A stretch of 64,000 nt of DNA from Stenotrophomonas sp. Marseille-Q4652 (GTDB lineage: Bacteria; Pseudomonadota; Gammaproteobacteria; Xanthomonadales; Xanthomonadaceae), in NCBI RefSeq assembly GCF_916618915.1, contig NZ_CAKAKE010000001.1:2649001-2713000 (forward strand), given 5' to 3'. The notes beneath the pieces are model-generated. The model did no database searches and was not told the DNA's origin. It was given only the letters and a program-made list of their open reading frames with translations. Below are positions 3,265-49,293 of this stretch, in pieces (the first letter of the stretch is position 1; each line of letters begins with the position of its first letter). A program made the translations under genes and the position numbers.

Positions 3265-4794
<1,530 letters not shown>

Positions 4795-6928: not shown

Positions 6929-7342
<414 letters not shown>

Positions 7343-7355
7343 GCAGGCGGCGCGC

Positions 7356-9473
7356 TCAGCGCGCCCACTGCCACTCCGCGCCCAGGCCGAAGCGCCGGCC
7401 CGGGCCCGGTTCGTAGAAGCGGCGGTTGCCGTCGTTGACGATCACCGAGCCCACATGGGCCCGGTCGAGCACGTTGTCCACCCTGGCAAATACCCGCAGC
7501 GGGCCGCGCGCCGTGTCCCACCGGCGCGAGGCCTCCAGGTGCACCAGGCCATAGCCAGGGGCGGCCTCGCTGCCGAGGTCGTCCACCGGGGTGTGGCTGG
7601 CCGCCACCCATTCCGCGGCAAATTCCCAGTCCCGCGGTTGCCAGCTCCCCCGCAGCTGCGCCTGCTGGCGCGGCACGCCCGGCAGCGGCGAACCGGCAGC
7701 GACCACGCCGGTCGGCTGCAGGCAGGGCGAGCCGCTGCAGGCCAGGTACCCATCGCGTACCTGCGCATCCACCCAGGTCCAGGCCAGCTGCAGCGCGGCG
7801 CTGCTGCCCAGCGGCTGCTGCCAGCTGGCTTCGGCGCCCTGGCGGCGGGTGCGGCCGATGTTGCGGTAGCTGCTGCGCCCGCCGGAATTGCTGGCTACCG
7901 CCAGCTCGTCGTCGGTATCGGCGCGGAACAGCGCCAGTTCCAGCGCCGCGCCATTGCGGCCGCGCCATTTGCTGCCCACTTCCAGGTTGCGGCTGCGCGC
8001 GGCGCGCAGGTCCAGCGCCAGCCCGGCGCCGCCATCGGCGCGATATCCCAGTTCGTTGAAGGTCGGGGTCTCGAAGCCACGGCCCAGTGAGGCGTACAGG
8101 CGCAGGTCGTCGTTGGCGTGGAAGCTGACCCCGGCCACCGGCGTGGTCGATCCGTAGTCACGGCGCCCGCTGTCGTCCGGGTTGCCCGGGGCCAGGTAAT
8201 GGTCGTCGGAGCGGAACCACAGGCGGCTGTGGCGCACGCCGGCCAGCAGCGACCAGCGCGGCGCGGGTTGCCACCAGGCCTGGGCGAACTGGTCGAGGTT
8301 GTGGACGCGGTCGTGCTGGTCGCGGCGCAGCCGACCGCGCACGCCCAGCGCGTGGCCGATGAAGTTCTCGTAGCCGGTGCGGTGCTGGCGCTGCTGGTCG
8401 GCATTGGTCCCCACCACCACGTCCAGCGCGCGCCCGGCCAAGCTGCCGTGCCAGGACCAGCGCAGGTCGGCGCCGCCGAAGTCGCTGTCCAGATCGATCA
8501 CTCCGCCGGCGTGCAGCGGGCTGGCCTGGGCGGCGGGCGGGATCGCCAGGAACTGCTCGACCTGGCGCTGGCCGGCATAGCCCATCAACCGCAGCGTGCT
8601 GGACGGACCCTGCTCGGTCAGCACCAGGCCCAGCTGCGACTGGCGCACGCTCTTTCGCGTGTCGTACTGGCGGGCCACGGCGGTGGCCTGGCGCGGGTCC
8701 TGCCGCCACTGGTCGCGGTCCAGCCCGAGCGGATCCTGTGCATCGGGCGCATCGAGGTGGTTGGCCAGCAGCTCCAGCCGCCGCCCCGGGGCCAGCTCCC
8801 AGCCCAGCCGTGCATTGAGTGACTGGCGCTGCGCGGCGCTGTGTTCGCGGTAGCCGTCGCTGCGCCAGTCGGTGGCGGCCAGGTTGTAGCGCAGCGGCCC
8901 CTGCCGGCCCTTGAGCTGGGCGCCGAGGGTCCGGCTGTCGTGGTTGCCGTAATGGGCCCGCAGCCGCCACGGGTCGCCCTGTTCGCCATCGCCGCTCCAC
9001 ACCTGCAGCACGCCGCCGGAGGAATTGCCGTACAGCGCCGAGAATGGCCCGCGCAGCACCTCGATGCGCTCGGCCCCGAACAGGTTGAACTGCGACAGCT
9101 GGCCCTGGCCGTCGGGCATCGTTGCCGGGATGCCATCCATCAGCAGCCGCACCCCGCGCACACCAAAGCCCGAACGGGCGCCAAAGCCGCGGATCGACAG
9201 CTGGGTGTCCTGGGCCGCGTTCTGGCGGTCTCGGGCCAGCAGCCCAGGCACCCCGCCCAGCGCCTCGGCCAGCTGGGCTTGGGCGCGATTGCCACTGTCA
9301 CCGGCCTGGAGCGTGGACAGCGAGGCCGGCAGGTCGAAATCGTCCACCGCCCGCACCCGCGCGACCTGCACCTGCACCGCGTCCAGGGTGGACACCGTCT
9401 GTTGGGCGGCGGCCGGCAACGCGGCCAGGGTGGCAAGGGCAAGCAGGGCGGGACAGGGGCTGGATCGGCGCAT
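7356..9473 (-). CDS. TonB-dependent outer-membrane receptor
   Basis: The 705-residue protein has a cleavable signal peptide (residues 1-23, ending PAAAQ). A plug domain at about 35-155 contains QLSIRGFGARSGFGVRG and the typical RIEVLRGPFSALYGNSSGG. A 22-stranded barrel extends to the C-terminus (FGLGAEWQWAR). Overall it resembles FecA/YncD-type siderophore or metal-chelate receptors. The ligand is not identifiable. Import would be driven by the TonB-ExbB-ExbD system encoded at 17.8-20.2 kb. The gene is divergent from the aminotransferase gene, with 158 bp between them; I saw no convincing Fur box. Confidence 0.88.
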   Translation of the reverse strand: MRRSSPCPALLALATLAALPAAAQQTVSTLDAVQVQVARVRAVDDFDLPASLSTLQAGDSGNRAQAQLAEALGGVPGLLARDRQNAAQDTQLSIRGFGARSGFGVRGVRLLMDGIPATMPDGQGQLSQFNLFGAERIEVLRGPFSALYGNSSGGVLQVWSGDGEQGDPWRLRAHYGNHDSRTLGAQLKGRQGPLRYNLAATDWRSDGYREHSAAQRQSLNARLGWELAPGRRLELLANHLDAPDAQDPLGLDRDQWRQDPRQATAVARQYDTRKSVRQSQLGLVLTEQGPSSTLRLMGYAGQRQVEQFLAIPPAAQASPLHAGGVIDLDSDFGGADLRWSWHGSLAGRALDVVVGTNADQQRQHRTGYENFIGHALGVRGRLRRDQHDRVHNLDQFAQAWWQPAPRWSLLAGVRHSRLWFRSDDHYLAPGNPDDSGRRDYGSTTPVAGVSFHANDDLRLYASLGRGFETPTFNELGYRADGGAGLALDLRAARSRNLEVGSKWRGRNGAALELALFRADTDDELAVASNSGGRSSYRNIGRTRRQGAEASWQQPLGSSAALQLAWTWVDAQVRDGYLACSGSPCLQPTGVVAAGSPLPGVPRQQAQLRGSWQPRDWEFAAEWVAASHTPVDDLGSEAAPGYGLVHLEASRRWDTARGPLRVFARVDNVLDRAHVGSVIVNDGNRRFYEPGPGRRFGLGAEWQWAR

Positions 9474-12142: not shown

Positions 12143-12844
12143 ATGAGCAGTCCAGCCGACTTCATCGAGGTCTACGACGAGGCGGTCAGCGCCGCCGACT
12201 GCGCGGCGATCGTGCAGCGCCTGCGCCAGAGCCCGCAGCTGCAACCGGGCGAGGTCGGCGGCGGCGTGCATCCCGAACTCAAGCGCAGCCGCGACCTGCG
12301 GATCAGCGGGCTGGCCAACTGGCGCGAGGTCGAACAGCGCCTGCAGCAGGCCGTGTTCGGCGGACTGCTGCGCTACCTGCGGCGCTACCCGCAGGCGCTG
12401 ATCTCGCCGTTGATGCTGCAGGTCCAGGATGCCGACGGCCGGCCGCGGCGGCTGGCCGCCGAGGACTTCCCCGGCATGGACGAGGCTTCGCTGGCCGGGC
12501 TGGCGCAGACCTGCCTGCGCCCGGGCGCGATCAACCTGCAGTGGTACGCCGCCGGCGAAGGCGGCTATCCGTACTGGCACTGCGAACTGTTCCCGCGCGA
12601 TGCCAGCGCCGAGACCCTGCACCGCCACCTGCTGTGGACGCTCTACCTCAACGACGGCTTCGACGAGGGCGAGACCGAGTTCCTGTTCCAGGGCCGCAAG
12701 GTCGCTCCGCGCACCGGCAGCCTGCTGTTCGCGCCGACCGCGTTCACCCACACCCACCGCGGCAACCGTCCGCAGGGCGGGGACAAGTTCATCGCCACCA
12801 GCTGGATCCTGTTCCAGTCGGCGCAGCGCCTGTACGGGCAGTAG
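12143..12844 (+). CDS. 2-oxoglutarate/Fe(II)-dependent oxygenase family protein
   Basis: The 233-residue protein fits the Fe(II)/2OG oxygenase fold of the prolyl-4-hydroxylase group. Candidate iron ligands are the His and Glu of YPYWHCELFP and the distal His in TAFTHTHRGNRP, followed by the Arg expected to hold 2-oxoglutarate. Note the first pair reads H-x-E instead of the usual H-x-D. The ATG at 12143 was chosen over an in-frame ATG at 12047 because the preceding 32 residues are low-complexity and lie in intergenic sequence. The substrate is unknown. Confidence 0.75.
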   Translation: MSSPADFIEVYDEAVSAADCAAIVQRLRQSPQLQPGEVGGGVHPELKRSRDLRISGLANWREVEQRLQQAVFGGLLRYLRRYPQALISPLMLQVQDADGRPRRLAAEDFPGMDEASLAGLAQTCLRPGAINLQWYAAGEGGYPYWHCELFPRDASAETLHRHLLWTLYLNDGFDEGETEFLFQGRKVAPRTGSLLFAPTAFTHTHRGNRPQGGDKFIATSWILFQSAQRLYGQ

Positions 12845-12924
12845 CGCCGACCTCTGGCGCGGTCGGCGTCCATTCCAGCCCAGTGCATCAACGGCTGGTT
12901 CCGCTTTCCACTTAAGAGCAAGCA

Positions 12925-13488
12925 ATGCGTACCCACGGAACGATCATACGTTGGAACAGCGAACGCGGATTCGGCTTCGTCCGGCCTGCGGGCAAGGACG
13001 ATGAGGTATTCGTGCACATCTCAGAGTTCGGCCGCGGCGAGCCGCCGCAGATTGGAGAGCTGATCTCGTTCGAGGTCATCGATCACCAGGGCAAGCCAAG
13101 GGCGGTAAACGTGCAACGCACTGGTGCCAGCAACAAGGCACGCCAGCGGGGTGATGCCCGCCACGCGCGCAAACCCCGGCGCGAGGGCTTGCTTCGCCGC
13201 GGGCTCGGAGTTGCGGCCTTGGTCGCGATAGCTGTTGCACTGCTTGGCCCTCGCCTGGGACTGGTCGGAGGGCCACCCGCCTTTGCCCCGGATCCGATTT
13301 CCGCCACGGCTGCAGCCGCGCCTGTCAGAACCGATGCGTCGTCGACTGCCTATCGCTGCGACGGGCGCACCCATTGTTCGCAGATGAGTTCCTGCGCCGA
13401 GGCCACCTGGGTCCTGCGCAACTGCCCGAACACACAGATGGATGGTGACGGCGACGGCGTTCCCTGCGAAACCCAGTGGTGCCGCTAG
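12925..13488 (+). CDS. cold-shock domain - membrane anchor - Excalibur domain protein
   Basis: The 187-residue protein has an N-terminal cold-shock domain (residues 1-65) with RNP1-like RGFGFVRP and the FVHIS RNP2-like motif. A basic linker and one transmembrane helix (about 92-110, VAALVAIAVALLGPRLGLVG) follow. The C-terminal Excalibur domain holds a Cys-rich region ending MDGDGDGVPCETQWC, whose D-x-D-x-D-G loop is calcium-binding in this family. The topology implies a cytoplasmic nucleic-acid-binding end and a periplasmic calcium-binding end. This architecture occurs in some gammaproteobacteria, but its role is unknown. Confidence 0.82.
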   Translation: MRTHGTIIRWNSERGFGFVRPAGKDDEVFVHISEFGRGEPPQIGELISFEVIDHQGKPRAVNVQRTGASNKARQRGDARHARKPRREGLLRRGLGVAALVAIAVALLGPRLGLVGGPPAFAPDPISATAAAAPVRTDASSTAYRCDGRTHCSQMSSCAEATWVLRNCPNTQMDGDGDGVPCETQWCR

Positions 13489-39095: not shown

Positions 39096-39099
39096 CTAG
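39096..39099. repeat. left CTAG target duplication of the IS
   Basis: CTAG abuts the left end of the IS. The right copy is at 40130-40133. Part of it supplies the transposase stop codon. Confidence 0.8.
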
Positions 39100-40046
39100 G
39101 TGTGTAAACCCAGGACGTTGTTCAGTGGAAGCTGGATGCGGCTGATCGGGGGTTGGTAGCCAAGGCTGGCGTGCGGCCGGTGCCAGTTGTACTGGTGCAG
39201 CCAGCGAGGAAGAGCGTGCCGACGCTGCTCCGAGCTGTCGTAGGAGCGGGCATAGGCCCATTCGCGCAAAGCGGTCTGGACCAGGCGTTCGGCCTTGCCG
39301 TTGGTACGCGGGGTGTAGGGTCGCGTGCGCAGATGGCGCAGGCCCAAGCGGCGCAGGAGCCGGCGGAAGCGCCGGGACTTGTAGCAGGCACCGTTGTCGG
39401 TCATCACCCGGGTGAAGGTGACGCCCAGGCCGCGGTAGTAGCGCAGGGCTTGAAGCAGTGCGCGGCAGGCGCTGGATCCGCGCTCATCATCTTCGATGGT
39501 GCCGAAGGCGACTCGTGAGTGATCGTCGATGGCGAGGTGGACGAACTCCCAGCCTGCGCCATCGGAGGCGCCCTGGCGATCGCCCGTGACCCGATGGCCA
39601 GGGCGCCAGAAGCGACCCAGCATCTTGATATCAAGATGCAGCAGGTCCCCGGCCTGGTGATACTCGTAGCGATTGTCCGGGGGCGCAGGATCCAGCTCGG
39701 CCAACCGGTGCAGCCCGGCACGGCGCATCAGTCGGGCAATGGTGCTCAGGCCGACCGGCAGGGCCAATGCGATCTGGCGGTAGGTCTGGCGTTGACGGCG
39801 CAGCGCGGTCACCTCGGCGGCCACCGATGGTGGGGTGGCATGCGGACAGCGGTGCGGGCGCGATGACCGGTCATCCAGGCCTGCCCAGCCTTCCTCGCGA
39901 AAGCGGCGCAGCCACTTGTAAGCGGTTCTGACGCTCACGCCCGCGGCATGCGCTGCCTCCTCGACCCGCAGGCCATGGTTGATCACTCGCTCCACAAGCA
40001 AGGCTCGACCGCGAGGCGTAAGACGGGCATGTTTATGCAGGTTCAT
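39096..40046 (-). CDS. IS481-family transposase
   Basis: The 316-residue transposase has an N-terminal helix-turn-helix (HAAGVSVRTAYKWLRRFREEG) and a DDE integrase core. The acidic residues are Asp in DLLHLDIKML, Asp in RVMTDNGACYKS and Glu in NGKAERLVQTALREW. The C-terminal YNWHRPHASLGYQPP is typical of IS481. The frame looks intact. Its TAG stop is completed by the CTAG target duplication (39096-39099), outside the element proper. The ATG is at 40046. Confidence 0.94.
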   Translation of the reverse strand: MNLHKHARLTPRGRALLVERVINHGLRVEEAAHAAGVSVRTAYKWLRRFREEGWAGLDDRSSRPHRCPHATPPSVAAEVTALRRQRQTYRQIALALPVGLSTIARLMRRAGLHRLAELDPAPPDNRYEYHQAGDLLHLDIKMLGRFWRPGHRVTGDRQGASDGAGWEFVHLAIDDHSRVAFGTIEDDERGSSACRALLQALRYYRGLGVTFTRVMTDNGACYKSRRFRRLLRRLGLRHLRTRPYTPRTNGKAERLVQTALREWAYARSYDSSEQRRHALPRWLHQYNWHRPHASLGYQPPISRIQLPLNNVLGLHT

Positions 40047-40255: not shown

Positions 40256-40804
40256 ATGAACAAGACCCTGATCCTGGCTGGCACCCTTGCGCTGGCGGCG
40301 TTCTCTTCCCAGGCCATGGCGGGCCAGGCCTTCGTGCGTGCCGAGGCGGGCTTCAGCGACATCGATGTCAGCTATGGCGGCTACCGCGAGAGCGAAGACG
40401 ATTCCTCCGGCGTGATCGGCGGCGGCTACTGGTTCAACCCGAACTTCGCCGTCGAGGGCCACGTCGGCTCGCTGTACAACAAGTACCTCGGCTATGACGA
40501 GGAGCTGGACCTGGTGACCGTGGGCGTTGGCGTGGTCGGCAAGAAGCACTTCGGCAACGGCTCCACCGGCTTGTTCGTCGGTGGCCGCGCTGGCATTGCG
40601 CGGCTGACCGCGCAGGTCCGCGAGGACACCTTCGACGTGGTCGAGGACGAAACCTCGGTCAAGCCGTACTACGGCGTGTTCGGCGGCTACGACTTCAACC
40701 GCAACTGGGGCCTGAGCCTGAACTACGACCGTCGCAAGGCCAACTTCGACGGCATCGACGTCAAGGTCGACACCTTCAGCGTCGGCGGCGAATACCGCTT
40801 CTGA
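40256..40804 (+). CDS. small outer-membrane beta-barrel protein
   Basis: The 182-residue protein has a classic signal peptide (residues 1-22, ending SQAMA). Eight-stranded OmpA/OmpX-like amphipathic strands follow, ending in GGEYRF with the C-terminal Phe recognised by the BAM complex. No periplasmic domain is present. The IS ends 123 bp upstream, and the genomic island begins 2 bp after the stop. In the ancestral layout the hairpin terminator at 49263 would have followed this gene. Function is unknown. Confidence 0.85.
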   Translation: MNKTLILAGTLALAAFSSQAMAGQAFVRAEAGFSDIDVSYGGYRESEDDSSGVIGGGYWFNPNFAVEGHVGSLYNKYLGYDEELDLVTVGVGVVGKKHFGNGSTGLFVGGRAGIARLTAQVREDTFDVVEDETSVKPYYGVFGGYDFNRNWGLSLNYDRRKANFDGIDVKVDTFSVGGEYRF

Positions 40805-40805
40805 T

Positions 40806-40819
40806 CTTCTGATCCGCTG
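40806..40819. repeat. island boundary repeat, left (att core)
   Basis: CTTCTGATCCGCTG occurs exactly here and at 49245-49258. It forms the first 14 bases of the tRNA 3' half at the integrase end of the island. Confidence 0.85.
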
Positions 40820-40850
40820 GTCGATGGTTCGAATCCATCACGGCCCACCA
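40806..40850 (+). pseudogene. tRNA 3'-half fragment (att site)
   Basis: These 45 bases fold as the 3' half of a tRNA: anticodon-stem strand TCCGC, variable loop TGGTC, T-arm GATGG-TTCGAAT-CCATC, acceptor strand ACGGCCC, discriminator A and CCA. No 5' half (expected to begin GGGCCGT) lies upstream, where the outer-membrane protein gene ends. It is the copy carried by an element that targets a tRNA gene. The parent tRNA is not identified with certainty. Confidence 0.85.
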
Positions 40851-40935
40851 GTACAATCAGTGACTTGCGTGTAGTCTCGGGATTCGAGAAACGCCATCGG
40901 TGCAGTTTCGGTACACCACCGAGGCGCGGCGACCG

Positions 40936-42243
40936 ATGGCGACCATCCGCAAGACCCCTTCCGGCACCTGGAAAGCGCTCATCCGCAAGAAGGGTTGGCC
41001 GGCCAGCGCCAAGACCTTCCGCACCAAGCGTGACGCCGAGGACTGGGCGCGCCGCGCCGAGGACGAGATGGTCCGCGGCGTGTACATCGACCGCTCGCGC
41101 TCGGAGCGCATGAGCCTCGCCGATGCGCTCGACCGCTACCTGCGGGAAGTCCTGCCGACCAAGAAGCCAAGCACGCAGCGGTCGGAGGCGCCCCGCGCCG
41201 AGCGGCTGCGCGAATTCTTCGGCGCCTACTCGCTGGCGGCGATCACGCCCGACCTGGTGGCGCGCTACCGTGACGAGCGTCTGGCCACGCCCGGGCAGCG
41301 CGTGCACCGGCTGGCCGGCAAAGTGACGCCGTTGAGCCCCAGTACCGTGCGGCTGGAGCTGGCGCTGTTGAGCCACCTGTTCAACACCGCCATCCGCGAA
41401 TGGCGGCTCGGGCTGGTCCACAACCCCGTGGTCGGTATTCGCAAGCCGCCGCCCGGAGAGGGGCGGTCCCGGCGCCTGCTGCCGGGCGAGGAAGCCCGGC
41501 TGCAGGCAGCCGTCAGCGCGCACTCCAATCCCATGCTGGGCTGGATTTTCAACGTGGCGCTGGAAACCGGCATGCGTTCGGGCGAAATCCTCGGCCTGCG
41601 GCTGCATCAGGTGGACCTGGCGCGGCGTGTGGTGCGGCTGTCCGTCACCAAGAACGACAGCGCCCGGACCGTTCCGCTGACGCAGCGCGCAACGCAGGTG
41701 CTCTGCGAGGCGCTGGCCAATCCGACGCGGCCGAAGGAGTGCGACCTGGTGTTCTTCGGCGAGCCGGGGAAGGACGGCAAGCGGGGACCCTATGCATTCA
41801 CCAAGGTCTGGAACGACACCAAGCTGGCCTTGGGTATGGCCGACCTGCGCTTCCACGACCTGAGGCACGAGGCGGTCAGCCGGCTGGTGGAGGCTGGTTT
41901 CAGCGACCAGGAGGTCTCGGCGATCAGCGGCCACAAGTCCATGCAGATGCTCAAGCGCTATACGCACCTACGCGCGGAGGACCTGGTAGGCCGCCTGGAC
42001 CGCGTGCAGCGGAAGCTGCCGGGCGGAGGTGGCAGCGACCACCTCCTCCAGCTCGGGCCACAGGTCCACGCTGGCGAAGTCGAAGCTGATCGCGCCGGGG
42101 CGCATCCGGACATGGGCCCAGAGGTCGGGAATGTCGAGCAGCAAGCGGTCCGCAGGCGCGTCAGTACGGTTGCCCGTAGTGACCTGCGCGGCAAGCGCCA
42201 CGCCGGCCTGCAGCCAGGGCGCGCCCGGCGCGGCGGGGCCTGA
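40936..42243 (+). CDS. tyrosine recombinase/integrase with aberrant C-terminus
   Basis: The 435-residue site-specific recombinase has an N-terminal Arm-binding-like domain and a SAM-like core-binding domain (about 60-160). In the catalytic domain, Arg is in ETGMRSGEILGLR, H-x-x-R in FHDLRHEA, His in ISGHKSMQM and the nucleophile Tyr in LKRYTHLRAE (about residue 341). The natural protein should end about 15-20 residues after that Tyr. Here another 80 residues follow that are antisense to a convergent gene and have poor codon bias. The ATG at 40936 is preferred. The catalytic residues are intact, so it may still act. Confidence 0.88.
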   Translation: MATIRKTPSGTWKALIRKKGWPASAKTFRTKRDAEDWARRAEDEMVRGVYIDRSRSERMSLADALDRYLREVLPTKKPSTQRSEAPRAERLREFFGAYSLAAITPDLVARYRDERLATPGQRVHRLAGKVTPLSPSTVRLELALLSHLFNTAIREWRLGLVHNPVVGIRKPPPGEGRSRRLLPGEEARLQAAVSAHSNPMLGWIFNVALETGMRSGEILGLRLHQVDLARRVVRLSVTKNDSARTVPLTQRATQVLCEALANPTRPKECDLVFFGEPGKDGKRGPYAFTKVWNDTKLALGMADLRFHDLRHEAVSRLVEAGFSDQEVSAISGHKSMQMLKRYTHLRAEDLVGRLDRVQRKLPGGGGSDHLLQLGPQVHAGEVEADRAGAHPDMGPEVGNVEQQAVRRRVSTVARSDLRGKRHAGLQPGRARRGGA

Positions 42244-42840
42244 CCAGTCCTCGCCCTGCGAACTGCGCAGCGCGATGCGGTCCTGGTCGATGTCCACGGC
42301 AAGCAGCGACTCGGGGCGGGTGACTGCCACCGCGGGCACGCACAGGCATTCCAGCAGCGACAACCGTGCTGGCGTGGTGGCTTTGATGGCCTCGCTTCGT
42401 CGGCGGCCATACATCCTTGCGACGCTTTGGCTGGTCGCCAGCGCCTTCGCCCGCTCGAACCCCTGCGGCTGGCGCAGCTCGGGATACTTGATCGACAGGG
42501 CCCGCAAAAGAGCATCCCGGCCCGCTGCCTGGCGGCGGCGGAGCTGCTGCAGCGTCGCGTAATCGTTCTGCTTGCGGTTGCGGCTGACGTGCGCTTTGCA
42601 GAACCGCTGGCTGGCTCCCTCCACACGGATGCGAAGCCCGTCCTGCAGTGGCCAGTGGTGCAGAAGGGCACGCAGGCCGACCAGATCGACGCTCAGCACC
42701 TGCGCCGCAAAAGCTTCCGTGAATTCTCCGCAGAGCTTGCAGTACAGGCGATTGAAGTCCGGCCCGACATGGCAGCCGGGCGCGACGCCTTCTTCGTCCG
42801 GGCCGCTGCGCCGCGAGGTGGGGCAGGTGAACTTCGCCAA
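41968..42840 (-). CDS. hypothetical protein with C-x2-C/C-x2-H motif
   Basis: The protein is about 290 residues. GC-rich third positions on this strand, contrasted with the opposite strand, show it is the true coding frame for 41968-42800. Near the N-terminus it has YCKLCGEF and, about 50 residues later, RFCKAHVSRNRKQND, a possible zinc-binding C-C-C-H set. The start is uncertain: the frame is open to 42930, a TTG is at 42840, and coding signal on the other strand begins near 42827. It overlaps the integrase 3' end by 276 bp. I cannot name the family. It may lack its natural 5' end. Confidence 0.55.
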   Translation of the reverse strand: MAKFTCPTSRRSGPDEEGVAPGCHVGPDFNRLYCKLCGEFTEAFAAQVLSVDLVGLRALLHHWPLQDGLRIRVEGASQRFCKAHVSRNRKQNDYATLQQLRRRQAAGRDALLRALSIKYPELRQPQGFERAKALATSQSVARMYGRRRSEAIKATTPARLSLLECLCVPAVAVTRPESLLAVDIDQDRIALRSSQGEDWSGPAAPGAPWLQAGVALAAQVTTGNRTDAPADRLLLDIPDLWAHVRMRPGAISFDFASVDLWPELEEVVAATSARQLPLHAVQAAYQVLRA

Positions 42841-43084
42841 TCGCGTGATGGTGGAACTGACCACGCTCACCACCAGGAACCTGTTCCAGCGGCTGCCATC
42901 GCCCACCGAGGAATCACGCGCGGCCGGCAACGGCTTCTACAATGCGCTGATTGCCAGCGTCGAGAAGGTGCTGGTCCAGGACCGGCCGCTGCTCGACAAG
43001 CTGGCCGCATCGATGATCGGCGGTGACGCCGAATTTGACGCGGTCGATGACGCGCACGGGTCGGCTTCCGATCCACAGGCGTGA
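42827..43084 (+). CDS. small hypothetical protein or 3' remnant of a larger gene
   Basis: The 85 codons from a GTG at 42827 show strong GC third-position bias and read NFANRVMVELTTLTTRNLF, then an acidic end (GGDAEFDAVDDAHG). GAGG lies 9 nt before the GTG, so it could be translated as it stands. Upstream in the same frame the sequence loses coding character. It may therefore be the 3' part of a gene cut at about 42820, where a minus-strand gene also begins. No function recognised. Confidence 0.5.
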   Translation: MNFANRVMVELTTLTTRNLFQRLPSPTEESRAAGNGFYNALIASVEKVLVQDRPLLDKLAASMIGGDAEFDAVDDAHGSASDPQA

Positions 43085-43222
43085 CCAGGTTTCGGCAGCG
43101 ATCGAGGGCATGAAAATAGCCGCGCTGGCGGTATCCGGACGGCCGGGATAGGGTCATGCAGGTGGCTGCGATTCGGTTGCGCGCGCGGCACGACTGCCGA
43201 CCGGAAATGCGAGGGGGCGACG

Positions 43223-43474
43223 ATGCAGACCGAAGCCGAAGAACTGTACCTGCTGGCGCGCGTCCATTCCGTTCTCTCCGGCAGTCGTTCGGTAGAGCCC
43301 CTGACCTGGCCCGAGCGCGGCTTCCTGTTCGACCGGATGGCCGCGGCCTGTGAGACAGTACAGGCCATGACCCCGGCGGAGCGCCAGGCCTGTTCGCTGG
43401 CCTTTCGCCAACGCTTCACCCCGGCTGGCGATTCGGTCCCCGGTACGGTAGGCTACCGTACAAGGAGGCCCGAT
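43223..43474 (+). CDS. open frame fused in frame to the antitoxin gene
   Basis: The 84 codons (MQTEAEELYLLARVHSVLSG start) have good codon bias and a GAGGGGG ribosome site. There is no stop before the antitoxin ATG at 43475, so reading through gives one 166-residue protein. Residues 1-70 look like a small helical protein and the rest is less ordered. It could be an independent gene that lost its stop, or an N-terminal extension of the antitoxin. Function unknown. Confidence 0.45.
43443..43461. promoter_or_regulatory. operator-like perfect palindrome before the antitoxin
   Basis: GTACGGTAG-g-CTACCGTAC is a perfect 9-bp inverted repeat ending one base before the antitoxin ribosome site (AAGGAGG, 43462-43468). 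This is where ribbon-helix-helix antitoxins bind to repress their own operon. Confidence 0.75.
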
Positions 43475-43723
43475 ATGACCGCCATTGCCGACCGCCTCGA
43501 CCTGCGCCTGAGCGTCGAGGACAAGAACCGCCTGCGTCGCGCCGCCGAGCTGCACGGCCTGCCGGTGGCCACCTTCGTGCGTGAAGCCGCGCTGCGCGAG
43601 GCCGAGACCACCATCGCCCATCCGCCCAGGGCCCGCCGCGGCAGCCTGGCCGCCCGCCTGCGCGGCCGCGCGACGGCGCGGATGGGGACCGACGAGATCA
43701 TGCAGCTGACCCGTGGCGCCTGA
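43475..43723 (+). CDS. ribbon-helix-helix antitoxin
   Basis: The 82-residue protein begins with a short beta strand (DRLDLRLSVEDKNRLRRAAE) and a second helix (LPVATFVREAALREAE), the plan of ribbon-helix-helix DNA-binding proteins. An Arg-rich tail follows that would cap the toxin. AAGGAGG lies 6 nt before the ATG, and the upstream palindrome is a likely operator. The toxin start overlaps its stop by 11 nt, so translation is coupled. It neutralises the PIN toxin and probably represses the operon with it. Confidence 0.8.
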   Translation: MTAIADRLDLRLSVEDKNRLRRAAELHGLPVATFVREAALREAETTIAHPPRARRGSLAARLRGRATARMGTDEIMQLTRGA

Positions 43724-44153
43724 TGTGCCCGAGGCGAAGCCGGCCGCAGGCAAGCGCGTCCTGGTGGACGCCAACGTTCTGCTGGACGTGCTGACGGACG
43801 ATCCGGACTGGTACGAGTGGTCGGCGGCGCAACTGGATGCCTGCGCCGACAGGGCCGAGCTGTGCATCAACCCCATCATCTACGCCGAGGTTTCGGTCGG
43901 GTTCCAGCGCATCGAGGAGCTGGACGTCGCCCTGCCGGCCGATGCCTTCACCCGGCTGGAGCTGTCGTGGGAGGCCGGCTTCCTCGCCGGCAAGGCCTTC
44001 CTGCAATACCGCCGCGCCAAGGGCGCCCGCACCTCGCCGCTGCCGGACTTCTACATCGGCGCCCATGCCGCCATCGACGGCATGGCGCTGCTGACGCGGG
44101 ATGCGAAGCGATATCGCACCTACTATCCCAAGCTTCAACTGATCTGCCCATAA
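43713..44153 (+). CDS. PIN-domain toxin (VapC-like ribonuclease)
   Basis: The 146-residue PIN nuclease keeps the acidic catalytic residues: Asp in VLVDANVLLDV, Glu in IYAEVSVGF, Asp in PLPDFYIGAHA and the final Asp in LLTRDAKRY. PIN toxins cleave RNA, often tRNA or rRNA. The GTG start at 43713 overlaps the antitoxin gene; a second GTG at 43725 is possible. It sits between the antitoxin and the restriction gene, 12 bp upstream of the latter. Confidence 0.85.
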   Translation: MAPDVPEAKPAAGKRVLVDANVLLDVLTDDPDWYEWSAAQLDACADRAELCINPIIYAEVSVGFQRIEELDVALPADAFTRLELSWEAGFLAGKAFLQYRRAKGARTSPLPDFYIGAHAAIDGMALLTRDAKRYRTYYPKLQLICP

Positions 44154-44165
44154 GGACAGGGGACG

Positions 44166-46886
44166 ATGGCACTTCATCCGCAATTTCCACGGTCGCCGTA
44201 TGCGACGCCGGATCCGGAGCACCGATGGTTTCCGGCCGACGAGGCCTTGCGCGGCACGGCGTACGAGAAGCTGCTGCCGCCGCTGGTCGCCAAGATCCGG
44301 GAAGAGGTCAGCCAATGGCGCAAGGCCGGCTACCCCGGTACGTCCGCCACATCACTGGCCCTGCTGCGCTGGTGGTTCCAGACCCAGCACATGGTCGAAC
44401 AGGCAGACCACAGCCAGTCCGAGTTCCGCTACTACTTCGCCCAGCGCGAGGCGGTGGAAACCGTCATCTGGCTGCACGACGTACGTCGCGCGCGCGACAA
44501 GTTTGACCTGATGCGCTTCGACGCCTCTGGCGCAGTCTCGGCGGGCATGTTCGACGAAGACTGGCCGCGCTACGTCTCCAAGATGGCCACCGGGGCCGGC
44601 AAGACCAAGGTGCTCTCGCTGCTGATCGCCTGGAGCTACTTCCACAAGCTCTACGAGCCCGACTCGACGCTGGCGCGCAACATGCTGCTGATCGCGCCCA
44701 ACATCATCGTGCTCGACCGCCTGCGTACCGACTTCGATGGCCTGAAGATCTTCTTCAACGATCCCGTCCTGCCCGACAACGGTTTCGACGGCCACAACTG
44801 GCGCGACGACTTCCAGCTCACCCTGCACATCCAGGACGACGTGCGCATCGTGCGTCCGGTGGGCAACCTGTTCCTGACCAACATCCATCGCGTCTATCTC
44901 GGCGACGTGCCCGACCCATCCCTGGAAGACGACGACCTGCGCGACTACTTCCTGAGCCCCTTTGGTCCTAAACCTGTCGGCAAGACCACCGACAGCCAGA
45001 CGGACCTGGGGGAGATCGTGCGCGAGATTGACGAGCTGGCCGTGTTCAACGACGAGGCACACCACGTCCACGATCCACGCATGGCGTGGTTCAAGTCCAT
45101 CCAGGACATCCACCACCGGATGCTGCAGAAGGACGGCCGGCTCTCGTTGCAGATCGACGTCACCGCCACGCCAAAACACAACAACGGCGCGATTTTCGTG
45201 CAGACCGTTTCCGATTACCCGCTGGTGGAGGCCATCTACCAGAACGTGGTCAAGCATCCGACGTTGCCGGACGAGGCCAGCCTTGCGCGCCTGCAGGAAC
45301 ACAAGAGCGCGATCTTCGAGGAACACTACGCCGACTACCTCAACCTCGGCATCGAGGAATGGCGCAAGAGCTACGCCGAGCACGAGGCCACCGGCAAGAA
45401 GGCGGTGCTGTTCGTGATGGTGGATGACACCAAGAACTGCGACCAGGTTGGCGCGTATCTGGAAAAGACTGCCCCGGAGCTGGAAGGCCGGGTGCTCGTC
45501 ATCCATACGAAGAAAAACGGCGAGATTTCCGAGTCGGCAAGCAACAAGGCGGCGAAGGACGAGTTGGACGTTCTGCGCAAGGCCTCAAACGACATCGACA
45601 GCTGGGACAGCCCCTATCGCGCCATCGTCTCGGTGCTGATGCTCAAGGAAGGCTGGGACGTGCGCAACGTCACCACCATCGTCGGTCTGCGCGCCTACAG
45701 CTCGAAAAGCAACATCCTGCCCGAGCAGACCCTGGGGCGCGGCCTGCGCCGCATGTACTTCGGCAGCGACCAGCCTGAGTACGTCTCGGTGATGGGGACC
45801 CAGGCCTTCATGGACTTCGTGCAGACCATCCAGACTGAAGGCGTGGAGTTCGAGCGCAAGCCGATGGGCAAGGGCGCCGGTCGCCAGCAGTCCTTGGTGG
45901 TGGAGGTGGATGCAGAGAACCCGGACAAGGACCTCGACGCGCTTGATATCGCCATCCCCAAGCTGAGCCGCCGCTTCAACCGGGAGTTCAAGGACCTGGC
46001 CGACCTCGACCCGGCCACGTTCGGTCAAACGCCGATTCCGCTCAGGCCGTTCACCCCGGAACAAACCCGCGAGATCGTGTTCAAGACAATGCTCGAAGGG
46101 GAGGTCCACCATACCGTCCACCTCGACGGGCTGGGGCCGGCGGACCATCGCTCCGTTGTGGGCTTCTTCGCCCGGCAACTCCTGAAGGAGCTGCGGCTGG
46201 TCGGCGGCTACGAGCTGCTGTATCCCAAGGTGCGCGGATTCCTCCGCGACCACCTGTTCCAGGCATCGCCCGTCGATCTCGACGACCCCTTGGTGCTGCG
46301 CAACCTGGCCGAACCAGACGCCGGCAAGATCGTCTTCGACCGCTTCAAGGCCGCGATCAACGCGCTGACAGTCAAGGACAGCGGCAGCTCGCGCATCGAG
46401 GACACCATCCGTCTGCGCAACACCCGGCCATTCCGCATGGAGAACCGCGAGTACCTGCCGGCGAAGAAGTCCATCTTCAACAGGATGGTGCCGGAGGCCA
46501 CCGGCGGCGGCTTCGAGCTCAAGTTCGGCAAGTTCCTCGACGGCGCACCGGACGTGGCGAGCTTTGCCAAGAACTACCTCGCCGTGGGCTTCAAGATCGA
46601 CTACGTGCGCGCCAATGGCGAGCTGTCCAACTACGTGCCGGACTTCCTGGTCAAGACGCCCGACGGCAAGGTCTGGGTCATCGAGACCAAGGGCCGCGAG
46701 GAGCTTGACCTGCCACAGAAGATGGCGCGCTTGCGCCAGTGGTGCGGGGAGGCCACCGAAGCCAGCCAGGCCGAAGGCGGGCCGGCATATCGCTTCGTGT
46801 ACGTGGATCAGGGCGGCTTTGAGCGCCACCCGCCCACCTCATTTGCCGCGCTGGTCGCCGGCTTTACCGAATATCAGGAGTCTTGA
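44166..46886 (+). CDS. type III-like restriction endonuclease (BPTD_3080-type), helicase-nuclease
   Basis: The 906-residue protein has an SF2 helicase core: Walker [10 protein letters not shown] near residue 140, the DEAH box (FNDEAHHV, about 294), and the motif VI region GRGLRR near 523. The nuclease is a C-terminal PD-(D/E)xK with PDF near 823 and ETK near 838. This helicase-plus-C-terminal-nuclease plan is that of Res subunits of type III restriction systems. The next gene encodes its DNA methyltransferase partner. The ATG follows the toxin stop by 12 bp, and ACAGGGGACG gives the ribosome site. Confidence 0.88.
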
Positions 46887-46888
46887 GC

Positions 46889-49087
46889 ATGGCGCGCCCG
46901 CAGAAGGAAGCCTATGACCTGTCCGACGCCGAAAAGCGCGATCTGATCCAGCTGATCCAGGCCGGCAAGCCCCTGCCGGAGAAATACCGCTTCCTGCTAT
47001 TCGCCGACAAGCGCGAGGTGGAGCTGGTGTGGAACGGCAAGAGTGCCGACGTATGCACGGCTGTGTTGCCGTTCCAGACGCTGGAGCATGTGGACGAACC
47101 CCGCGAGGAGACCAGGGCACAGGCCGAACTGTTCGACGCCCGCGGCCGGCAGACGCAGGGCTGGACCAACAAGCTGATCTGGGGCGACAACAAGCTGATC
47201 CTCTCAAGCCTCAAGGCCGGCGCGCTGCGCCGGCAAATCGAGGACGCGGGTGGGCTGAAGCTGATCTACATCGACCCGCCGTTCGACGTGGGCGCCGACT
47301 TCAGCATGGACATCGAGATCGGCGGTGAGACCTTCCACAAGGAAGCGAATCTGCTGGAGCAAATTGCCTACCGGGATACTTGGGGGCGCGGGGCGGACAG
47401 CTTTATCAGCATGATCTATGAGCGGTTGATCCTGATGCGGGATTTGATGCATCCGGAAGGAAGCATTTACGTCCACTGCGACTGGCGAGTAAACGCCTTT
47501 ATTCGCCAAGTGCTAGACGAGGTCTTTGGTTCTGACCATTTCATAAATGATCTCGTCTGGAACTACTTTGCATTCAAGCGAAAGACGGCGAAGAAGTTTC
47601 CACAAAAACACGATTCAATCATTTCGTTCCGGAAGGGTGAGCGCCATGTCTGGCGAACCCAGTTCAAGCCTCATTCTCCCGAGTACCTGAAGCGATGGAA
47701 GACGGACGCCGATGGGCGCCTTTATCGAGACGACGTGAATCCAACGGCTGGTGGTGCCCGAGTGATTTATTTGGATGAACTCGAGGGAGACATCGTAGAT
47801 TCCGTATGGGATGACATTCCGCCAGTGAACCCGGCGGGCGCAGAAAGAGTGGACTATCCAACGCAGAAGCCCGAAGCACTGTTGGAACGCATTATCAAGG
47901 CGAGCAGCAACGAAGGTGACCTGGTCGCCGACTTCTTCACTGGCTCTGGCACGACTGCTGCGGTCGCGGAAAAACTCGGCCGCAAGTGGATCGCCACCGA
48001 CCTCGGCAAATTCGCCATCCACACCACCCGCAAGCGCCTGATCGGCGTGCAGCGCGAGCTGAAGGCCGCCAACAAGCCGTTTCGCGCCTTCGAGCTTCTC
48101 AACCTTGGCCGCTACGAGCGCCAGGCCTACCTCAACGTCGGCGGCCGGCTGTCGGCCGAGCAGCGCGAACAGGCGCTGCTGCGGAAGGAAACCGAATTCC
48201 GCGAGCTGATCCTGCGCGCCTACAAGGGCGAGCCGCTGGCCAACGACGGCTTCTTCCACGGCAAGTACGCTGGCCGGCTGGTGGTGATCGGTCCGATCAA
48301 CCTGCCGGTGGGGCGGCTGTTCGTGGAGGAGGTCATCACCGAATGCCGCAAGCGCGGCGCCACCCGCGTGGACGTGTTGGCGTTCGAGTTCGAGATGGGC
48401 CTGTTCCCGGCGGTGCTGGAGGAAGCCAAAGGCAAGGGCATCGACCTCACACCCAAGTACATCCCGGCCGAGGTGTTCGACAAGCGCGCTGTGGACCGTG
48501 GGCAGGTGATGTTCCATGACATTTCCTTCGTCGAGGCGACGCCGCGTTATGCCAAGGGCCGGACTGCCCGCGACAAGCTGACGGTGCAGATCGAACTGAC
48601 CGACTTCTCCGTCTACTACACGCAGGGCGCCGCCGAGGCGGCCATCGCCGCGCTCAAGGATGGCAAGTCCGACGTGATCTGCGACCAGGGCCAACTGGTC
48701 AAGATCAGCAAGAGCAAGGAGGGCGCGGTGAAGCGCGAAGTCCTCACCAAGCACTGGACCGACTGGGTGGACTACTGGGCAGTGGACTTCGACTACCAGA
48801 ACCGCAAGGAAATCATCCGCGTGCCGGTCGGCGCCGGCCCCGGTGGCGTGCTGCCCGGTTTCGAGCACGGCCAGCAGGACATGCCGCTGGAATTCGAGGA
48901 CCGCTGGACCGGAGGCTACATCTTTGAGAACGAGTGGCAGAGCTTCCGCACCCGCAAGCAGCGCGAGCTGGAACTCATTACCGCCGAGCACACCTACGAC
49001 CGCCCCGGCCGCTACACCGTGGCGGTGAAAGTGGTGGACATCTTTGGCAACGACACCATGACCCTGGTGCCGGTCAGTGTCGGATGA
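46889..49087 (+). CDS. N6-adenine DNA methyltransferase of the R-M pair
   Basis: The 732-residue beta-class methyltransferase has the catalytic motif DPPF in [11 protein letters not shown] (about residue 128) before the SAM-binding motif [10 protein letters not shown] (about 347), the order seen in type III Mod subunits. Codon use between nt 47340 and 47960 (residues 150-357) is clearly more A/T-ending than on either side. This stretch would contain the target-recognition region. The C-terminus (from about 695) reads [19 protein letters not shown] and [10 protein letters not shown], resembling a PKD-type beta domain. ATG 46889 has AGGAG 8 nt upstream; the restriction gene's stop lies 2 bp before. 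Confidence 0.88.
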
Positions 49088-49209
49088 GCCTAGCGACGCG
49101 TGCGAGGTACACCAGCGGTACACCGCGCAGTTTTTGTGCGCTGCAATAAGCTAACGCAAATTATTGATCTTCAAGTAAAACCGGCTAACAAGAGCTAACG
49201 CCAACTTCC

Positions 49210-49240
49210 CTTATGGATCAGTAAGTTACTGATTCATAAG
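49210..49240. repeat. 31-bp inverted repeat near island end
   Basis: Fifteen-base arms (start CTTATGGATCAGTAA) around a single G, with one mismatch, end 4 bp before the att core. Confidence 0.85.
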
Positions 49241-49244
49241 GCAA

Positions 49245-49258
49245 CTTCTGATCCGCTG
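49245..49258. repeat. island boundary repeat, right (att core)
   Basis: Second exact copy of CTTCTGATCCGCTG. The sequence then continues into chromosomal DNA, leading to the terminator at 49263. Confidence 0.85.
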
Positions 49259-49262
49259 TACT

Positions 49263-49293
49263 GGAAAACGGCCGCCTTGCGCGGCCGTTTTCC
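49263..49293. terminator. perfect 13-bp bidirectional terminator
   Basis: GGAAAACGGCCGC and its exact complement GCGGCCGTTTTCC enclose a 5-nt loop. It ends transcription of the Lrp gene on the minus strand. Before the island inserted it would also have ended the outer-membrane protein gene (40256). Confidence 0.9.

Follow-up and report, generated by a model that had tools for sequence, protein, structure and literature searches.

An integrase-bearing island with tRNA-Lys(UUU)-derived ends and a type III-like restriction-modification cargo, probably inserted at a secondary site where an outer-membrane protein gene ends

Here, we present an analysis of an 8.45-kb island at positions 40806-49258 of a window from Stenotrophomonas sp. 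Marseille-Q4652 (the window being the whole stretch of 64,000 nucleotides that was analysed). With a probability that we put at about 0.88, this island is a tyrosine-integrase element whose primary target in Lysobacter-type hosts is the anticodon arm of tRNA-Lys(UUU) and which sits here at a secondary site. The island is not inside a tRNA gene that it restores, whereas a sister element, in locus L062 from Lysobacter penaei, is; for this reason, we read the window as holding a tRNA element at a secondary site. The two elements share the integrase, a convergent gene, a ribbon-helix-helix (RHH)/PIN pair and both ends; unlike the island in the window, L062 lies in tRNA-Lys(UUU), keeps an additional 1.8 kb and has another type III restriction-modification system together with a DUF3800 gene in its cargo slot. 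For this one secondary-site island, a sister in its primary site, a nearly empty site and a differing host tRNA are all in hand.

RESULTS

The earlier note had delimited the island by two exact copies of a 14-mer, and both lines of evidence bear this out. A scan of the window finds CTTCTGATCCGCTG exactly at 40806 and 49245, against a mean of 0.57 matches at up to two mismatches in shuffled sequence. BLASTN with L062 aligns 40806-42806 at 92% identity, 42796-44153 at 91% and 49106-49258 at 97%. Because the outer limits of this homology (40806 and 49258) are also the outer limits of the two 14-mers, we take the left copy (40806..40819, + strand, attL core) and the right copy (49245..49258, +, attR core) as the ends of the element. 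A third match, with two mismatches, at 40798 represents an 8-bp tandem repeat of the first copy: TTCTGATC stands twice at the left junction (40799..40814, +; copies at 40799-40806 and 40807-40814), compared with a single-copy stop region in all seven relatives' loci that carry the neighbouring gene. Slippage would account for the extra copy and is our simplest guess. The G+C content is 64.5% for the island (68.4% from the integrase to the PIN gene and 62.5% for the restriction-modification genes) and 67.8% for the rest of the window. Megablast found no copy of the island in plasmid or phage collections. The exact ends also bear on the idea that the island was brought by homologous recombination or by a neighbouring IS481-type transposon and not by its integrase. 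An IS481-type ORF does end about 200 bp upstream of the adjacent outer-membrane protein gene; however, to single-base precision the junctions coincide with the ends of the element itself, and the transposon is located beyond these, making this route hardly credible. Insertion by the IS481-type element itself was rejected, as the L062 comparison places the junctions exactly at the element ends.

A predicted tyrosine recombinase with its catalytic motifs (TGMRSGE, HDLRH and GH..Y) stands beside one end of the island, as had been proposed. Its gene (40936..42243, +) matches PF00589 with an E value of 7e-29. A scan of genome contigs yielded 342 relatives of this integrase, and all figures for integrase loci cover the best 80 of these 342; the nearest is that of L062 (Lysobacter penaei SG-8), at 95% identity. 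Its last ~71 codons extend past the usual end and are antisense to the next gene. This tail (41968-42243, ~71 codons) is present only in the window and L062, while in the best 80 of 342, the other 79 of the 80 frames measure 345-385 codons from the matched start. The convergent gene (41968..42806, -), whose 5' end is lost, belongs to an ORF at 41968-42930 without a Pfam match, and its homology to L062 stops at 42806. Differences between the window and L062 past the integrase frame number 23, 6 and 8 at codon positions 3, 2 and 1 of the convergent gene, and within the 276-bp overlap with the integrase tail they number 9, 2 and 4. This pattern suggests that the convergent gene is probably real and, because the differences follow its codon positions, that the extra tail of the integrase is probably unconstrained. 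The left arm (40851..40935, +) carries a GGTACA motif. At least two copies of GGTACA or its complement occur in the 130 bp before the integrase at 66 of the best 80 of 342 loci versus 10 of 1600 random pieces, and based on this motif count, we suggest that they are probably integrase arm sites. The conserved distal arm (49106..49244, +), in which GGTACA motifs are accompanied by an inverted repeat (49213-49237), is 97% identical to L062 20258-20410, and the distance from the tRNA end to the integrase start is 86 bp in the window and L062 alike.

In addition to direct repeats at both ends, the element carries a 45-bp 3' half of a tRNA-Lys(UUU)-type gene without a 5' half (40806..40850, +), in agreement with the earlier note; ARAGORN found no tRNA in the 64-kb window. 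The proposed search for an intact tRNA with the same 3' half has now been run and returned none: at up to three mismatches, the only copy of the 3' half in the 3.35-Mb genome is the one inside the island. The same 3' half was found in 85 of 297 sampled family genomes and in none of 16 other sampled members of the genus; a close integrase is present in two of 91 genus genomes, namely, the window's own and G048, where it lies at tRNA-Phe. The L062 element sits in an intact tRNA-Lys(UUU) and has the same ends as the island in the window; its distal end consists of the same arm, then CTTTTAATCCGCTGG and then the remainder of the tRNA-Lys 3' half. Each of the three nearest integrases (L062, L063 and L064) stands behind an intact tRNA-Lys(UUU). 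More broadly, among the best 80 of 342 loci, 72 show an intact tRNA no more than 700 bp upstream of the integrase gene (52 Met, 5 Asn, 5 Leu, 5 Lys, 4 Thr and 1 Phe). The other 8 of these best 80 of 342 do not: five (L065, L084, L108, L115 and L141) show the 3' half of a tRNA but not its 5' half, at L136 there is a short tRNA 3' end, the upstream tRNA-Met of L075 is ~1.1 kb away and L087 has no upstream tRNA. Some of these eight loci may represent secondary sites or tandem elements. Distal repeats were found at four of the best 80 of 342 loci (L062, L116, L126 and L130), most elements exceeding the flank searched; they begin 1 or 2 bases before the anticodon loop, and that of L130 may belong to another tRNA. 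At L065 9872-10001, the sequence preceding a tRNA-Lys 3' half and an integrase of 76% identity is no tRNA 5' half, and the locus may represent a second secondary-site insertion.

The secondary target is the end of a host outer-membrane beta-barrel protein gene (40256..40804, +; PF13505), which is rare: counting the window's own genome, 8 of 91 in the genus have it. The insertion keeps the reading frame of this gene whole and displaces its terminator by 8.45 kb. The severed terminator hairpin (49265..49291, +; -28.4 kcal/mol, z -5.9) was spotted by eye and then folded. The pattern scan for promoters and terminators did not list it; that scan gave 0 promoter-like matches (1.2 expected) and 7 terminator-like matches (6.5 expected), none above shuffles. 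The nearest empty site is in another genome of the genus, G012 (locus L035), which lacks the island. There, the gene runs straight to a terminator hairpin that is 97% identical to the window's over 34 bases, and a single copy of the site, CGCTTCTGATCCGC, overlaps the stop codon. The predicted arrangement of gene, one site copy and adjoining terminator was, thus, found, but the exact 14-mer was not, the site matching at 12 of 14 bases. The gene ends in CTTCTGATC in G012, G027, G028 and G058, in CTTCTGATT in G078 and in TTTTTGAT in G053 and G030, and is followed by intergenic sequence in all seven relatives. The target, thus, overlaps the stop codon. Of the earlier claim that the element entered the space between gene and terminator and not a tRNA gene, the second part stands, while the target is not confined to that space. 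We observed that in G012 (L035 7183-11232), ~4 kb separate the terminator from an Lrp-type gene that directly follows the terminator in the window. We also noticed an ORF for an IS481-type transposase (39096-40046, -; Pfam LZ_Tnp_IS481 and rve) ~200 bp upstream of the outer-membrane protein gene, of which it is possibly a recent neighbour.

These loci speak to the alternative raised earlier, that the island entered a local tRNA-Lys gene whose 5' part was later lost. A tRNA 3' half at the integrase end is what normal insertion leaves behind. However, in G012 the gene adjoins the terminator and no tRNA separates the two, ARAGORN found no tRNA in the fetched stretches of the seven relative loci (L035-L041), and the native tRNA-Lys genes are intact elsewhere. 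Moreover, the loop at both island ends equals the gene's Phe-stop region in four of seven relatives (CTTCTGATC). We therefore regard this scenario as very improbable, and a tRNA lost at this site was rejected on the absence of a tRNA from the window, the unique 3' half, the intact tRNA-Lys genes and the relatives' loci. No relative of the integrase was detected in the seven fetched relative loci with the outer-membrane protein gene. By contrast, the model favoured at the outset, recombination between a tRNA-derived att site on the element and a chromosomal 14-mer, is strengthened by the L062 element in tRNA-Lys with the same ends and by the empty site in G012.

The host genome has 59 Rfam tRNA matches. 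Its tRNA-Lys(UUU) reads CTTTTAATCTTTTGG and its tRNA-Lys(CUU) reads CTCTTAATCAATAGG; both genes are intact, lie away from the island and have stems unlike the element's, with tRNA-Lys(UUU) mismatching the element core in the 3' anticodon stem. The probe CTTTTAATCYKYTGGTCG was matched in 89 of 91 genus genomes (the two others are 83% and 76% complete), 88 of which have only the TCTTTTGG stem form, G012 alone having TCCGCTGG. Written in the 5-7-5 frame known from ICEBs1 (PMC3715440), the Lysobacter target is TCGGA-CTTTTAA-TCCGC; relative to it, the host tRNA-Lys has 3+0+3 mismatches and the used site 4+2+0, i.e., 6 over the 17-bp frame in both cases. In these sequence comparisons, the mismatch count alone fails to separate the used site from the host tRNA-Lys. 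Similarly, the 15-mer CTTTTAATCCGCTGG has matches at up to three mismatches in 20 genome places, two of which are the island ends (6 in the backward control); two other places match with two mismatches, and by this measure the used site does not clearly stand out as the genome's best match. The used site (CTTCTGA TCCGC versus CTTTTAA TCCGC in the tRNA arm) keeps the whole right half of the target, suggesting that this half may matter.

Based on these data, we propose that the element, in a host whose tRNA-Lys differs in the 3' anticodon stem, would have settled in a stop-codon sequence resembling that arm. The insertion would have been made by the island's own integrase, with a crossover within or adjoining the 7-bp anticodon loop. 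The tRNA core reads CTTTTAATCCGCTG, and the 14-mer at both island ends has the chromosomal bases at two positions. Of the initial shared-14-mer model, recombination at the site is retained, while the identity of the 14-mer with the tRNA core is not. Simple strand exchange predicts one end per loop version, but both ends carry the chromosomal version; we suggest that the loop mismatches were settled in favour of the chromosomal bases at both ends. Mismatch repair would be unneeded if a previous secondary insertion had already left CTTCTGATCCGCTG in the element's attachment site and the element then encountered the identical sequence on the chromosome, as CTTCTGA at both ends and the extra 8-bp copy at the left junction could indicate. 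However, CTTCTGATC at the gene stop in G012, G027, G028 and G058 makes the chromosome a sufficient source, and the seven tRNA-Lys copies in L062, L063, L064, L153, L154, L161 and L162 read CTTTTAATCC, arguing that this history is unlikely.

The proposed PIN/RHH toxin-antitoxin pair is upheld by profile matches. The RHH antitoxin-like ORF (43223..43723, +) matches TacA1 (3.6e-7; domain at residues 91-132); its relatives align from about residue 75-81, and its real start is perhaps at 43475. The PIN-domain toxin-like gene (43713..44153, +; PIN 3.2e-11, with NCBIfam VapC matched below cut-off) overlaps the upstream gene for the small DNA-binding antitoxin-like protein in a predicted VapBC-like layout. 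The pair may stabilise the island.

An exchanged cassette follows, occupying the restriction-modification slot between the PIN stop codon (44153) and the distal arm (49106), where homology to L062 is lacking (44154..49105, +). PADLOC type III models match both of its genes, in keeping with the earlier annotation as a type III-like pair. The Res-like ORF (44166..46886, +), a putative helicase/endonuclease, has a ResIII match (5e-9) and the motifs GAGKT, DEAH and PDF..ETKG of a candidate SF2 helicase with a C-terminal PD-(D/E)xK-like nuclease; its PADLOC REase_III match (E 8e-21) covers part of the profile, NCBIfam BPTD_3080 reaches 258.9 bits against a cut-off of 800, and a PDB sequence search gave no match. 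The Mod-like DNA methyltransferase (46883..49087, +; N6_N4_Mtase 2e-40, PADLOC MTase_III E 2.7e-123) has DPPF at residue 131 and FTGSGTT at 352. The similarity of its residues 96-255 to the EcoP15I Mod chain 4zcf (E 1.7e-13) and the order of DPPF before an FxGxG motif are as in type III Mod proteins. Both ORFs are open throughout with the expected motifs, and the pair may be active. Four elements with the RHH/PIN pair have four different best MTase_III models in PADLOC (PDLC03633 in the window, PDLC03640 in L062, PDLC03646 in L153 and PDLC03639 in L154), supporting that whole type III-like systems are exchanged between conserved ends. The L063 methyltransferase, cut by the contig end, is 72% identical to that of L154 over 339 aa. 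L153 (3376-12085) and L154 (3955-10531) combine tRNA-Lys, the RHH/PIN pair and type III genes; no integrase was detected in either, and they are possibly non-autonomous or decayed relatives. L153 has the distal arm and tRNA half, and L154 only a 26-base match to the arm. The window's cassette recurs at 85% identity directly behind tRNA-Lys in G251, at a locus with no integrase and no RHH/PIN, and there, too, the homology starts at 44153. The related cassette in G251 (L222, reverse complement 7160-8513) has an ORF that is Fic-like by eye between the Res and Mod genes. In the flanks searched at the best 80 of 342 integrase loci, type III relatives of these Mod/Res queries were found only at L062, L063 and L139, which links restriction-modification with this sub-branch and not with the whole integrase family.

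A survey of 395 family genomes for the PIN protein gave matches in 22 genomes other than the window's own, 12 of them at ≥81% identity and ten at lower identity; the tallies for tRNA and type III genes cover the 12. An intact tRNA is present in the fetched stretch in nine of the 12 (six Lys, two Leu and one Asn), and none was found in that of G434, G214 or G082. Type III genes or a clear fragment were found in seven (G181, G312, G361, G237, G398, G393 and G434), and in G214 no more than the first codons of a Mod resembling that of L062 are present. Because tblastn with four known Mod/Res pairs found no type III genes in G136, G364, G125 and G082, the RHH/PIN pair is not always accompanied by a type III system. 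In L198 (1853-9184), an RHH/PIN pair and a Res-Mod pair in the window's order lie between two copies of tRNA-Leu(CAA); thus, this unit also travels with another tRNA target.

Compared with L062, the island in the window has lost ~1.8 kb (L062 11872-13665), with the junction at 42796..42806. Next to it lies a 3' remnant (42807..43084, +) of a small gene, the complete form of which is found in L062 (13402-13953), as seen from the ORF list and the L062 comparison; only short GC-rich similarity is present at the deletion end-points. Two ORFs (12183-12458 and 12462-13283) lie in the extra 1.8 kb of L062, neither with a Pfam match and each looking HTH-like by eye; the 5' parts of a further two genes are also there. 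Relatives of ORF 12183-12458 (40-44% identical) sit ~0.7 kb behind the integrase in the tRNA-Phe elements of G216 and G048, supporting that this ORF belongs to the integrase module. The copy in the window may be immobile for want of this ~1.8 kb, the loss of which would hamper excision; if ORF 12183-12458 were an excisionase, the island could not leave alone.

DISCUSSION

Secondary-site integration is already known from ICEBs1 and SGI1, and the island is not a new kind of system; it is a clean natural case of such integration with a modular cargo slot. ICEBs1 has a tRNA primary site with a 5-7-5-bp core, enters scattered sites with 2-12 mismatches when the primary site is absent, and shows reduced or abolished excision from secondary sites (PMC3715440). 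The island resembles ICEBs1 in its tRNA primary target and its entry at a mismatched secondary site (PMC3715440). By comparison, ICEBs1 is conjugative and its primary site was removed, whereas here the host tRNA differs naturally, and the island is small, with a restriction-modification cargo and no transfer gene identified in it. SGI1 has a 14-bp second attB between sodB and purR that differs from the element's site, and one of 10 transconjugants had the same base at both ends, which was ascribed to mismatch repair (PMC2297512). SGI1 and the island share a secondary site just after a protein gene and, in that one transconjugant, agreement between the two ends (PMC2297512); however, SGI1 primarily targets the end of thdF and not a tRNA gene, and its cargo is different.

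In the Islander catalogue, the crossover is anticodon centred in 2083 of 3919 islands (PMC4383910). The island in the window is similar to these in its tyrosine integrase, the tRNA fragment in the element and the anticodon-centred crossover that we propose. Islander seeks an intact tRNA beside a displaced fragment, while the window has only the fragment (PMC4383910); methods that depend on finding an intact tRNA next to the fragment can overlook islands of this kind. The roles of loop identity versus stem identity in target choice are open to test on such natural sites. The window also documents a defence island in which the restriction-modification genes are exchanged while the ends and toxin-antitoxin pair stay. 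Whether this amounts to a dedicated shuttle for type III systems is doubtful, and we raise it tentatively. Such a shuttle would have a fixed chassis (tRNA-Lys ends, integrase and RHH/PIN pair) and a swap slot from the PIN gene to the distal arm and, when the tRNA target is incompatible, would settle on the ends of outer-membrane protein genes, where the Phe-stop (TTC TGA) mimics the anticodon loop.

Finally, degenerate copies of the tRNA-Lys 3' half lie just behind tRNA-Lys in L164 (9116-9420), L196 (2889-3040) and L222 (reverse complement, 4207-4370), and look like scars of repeated visits.
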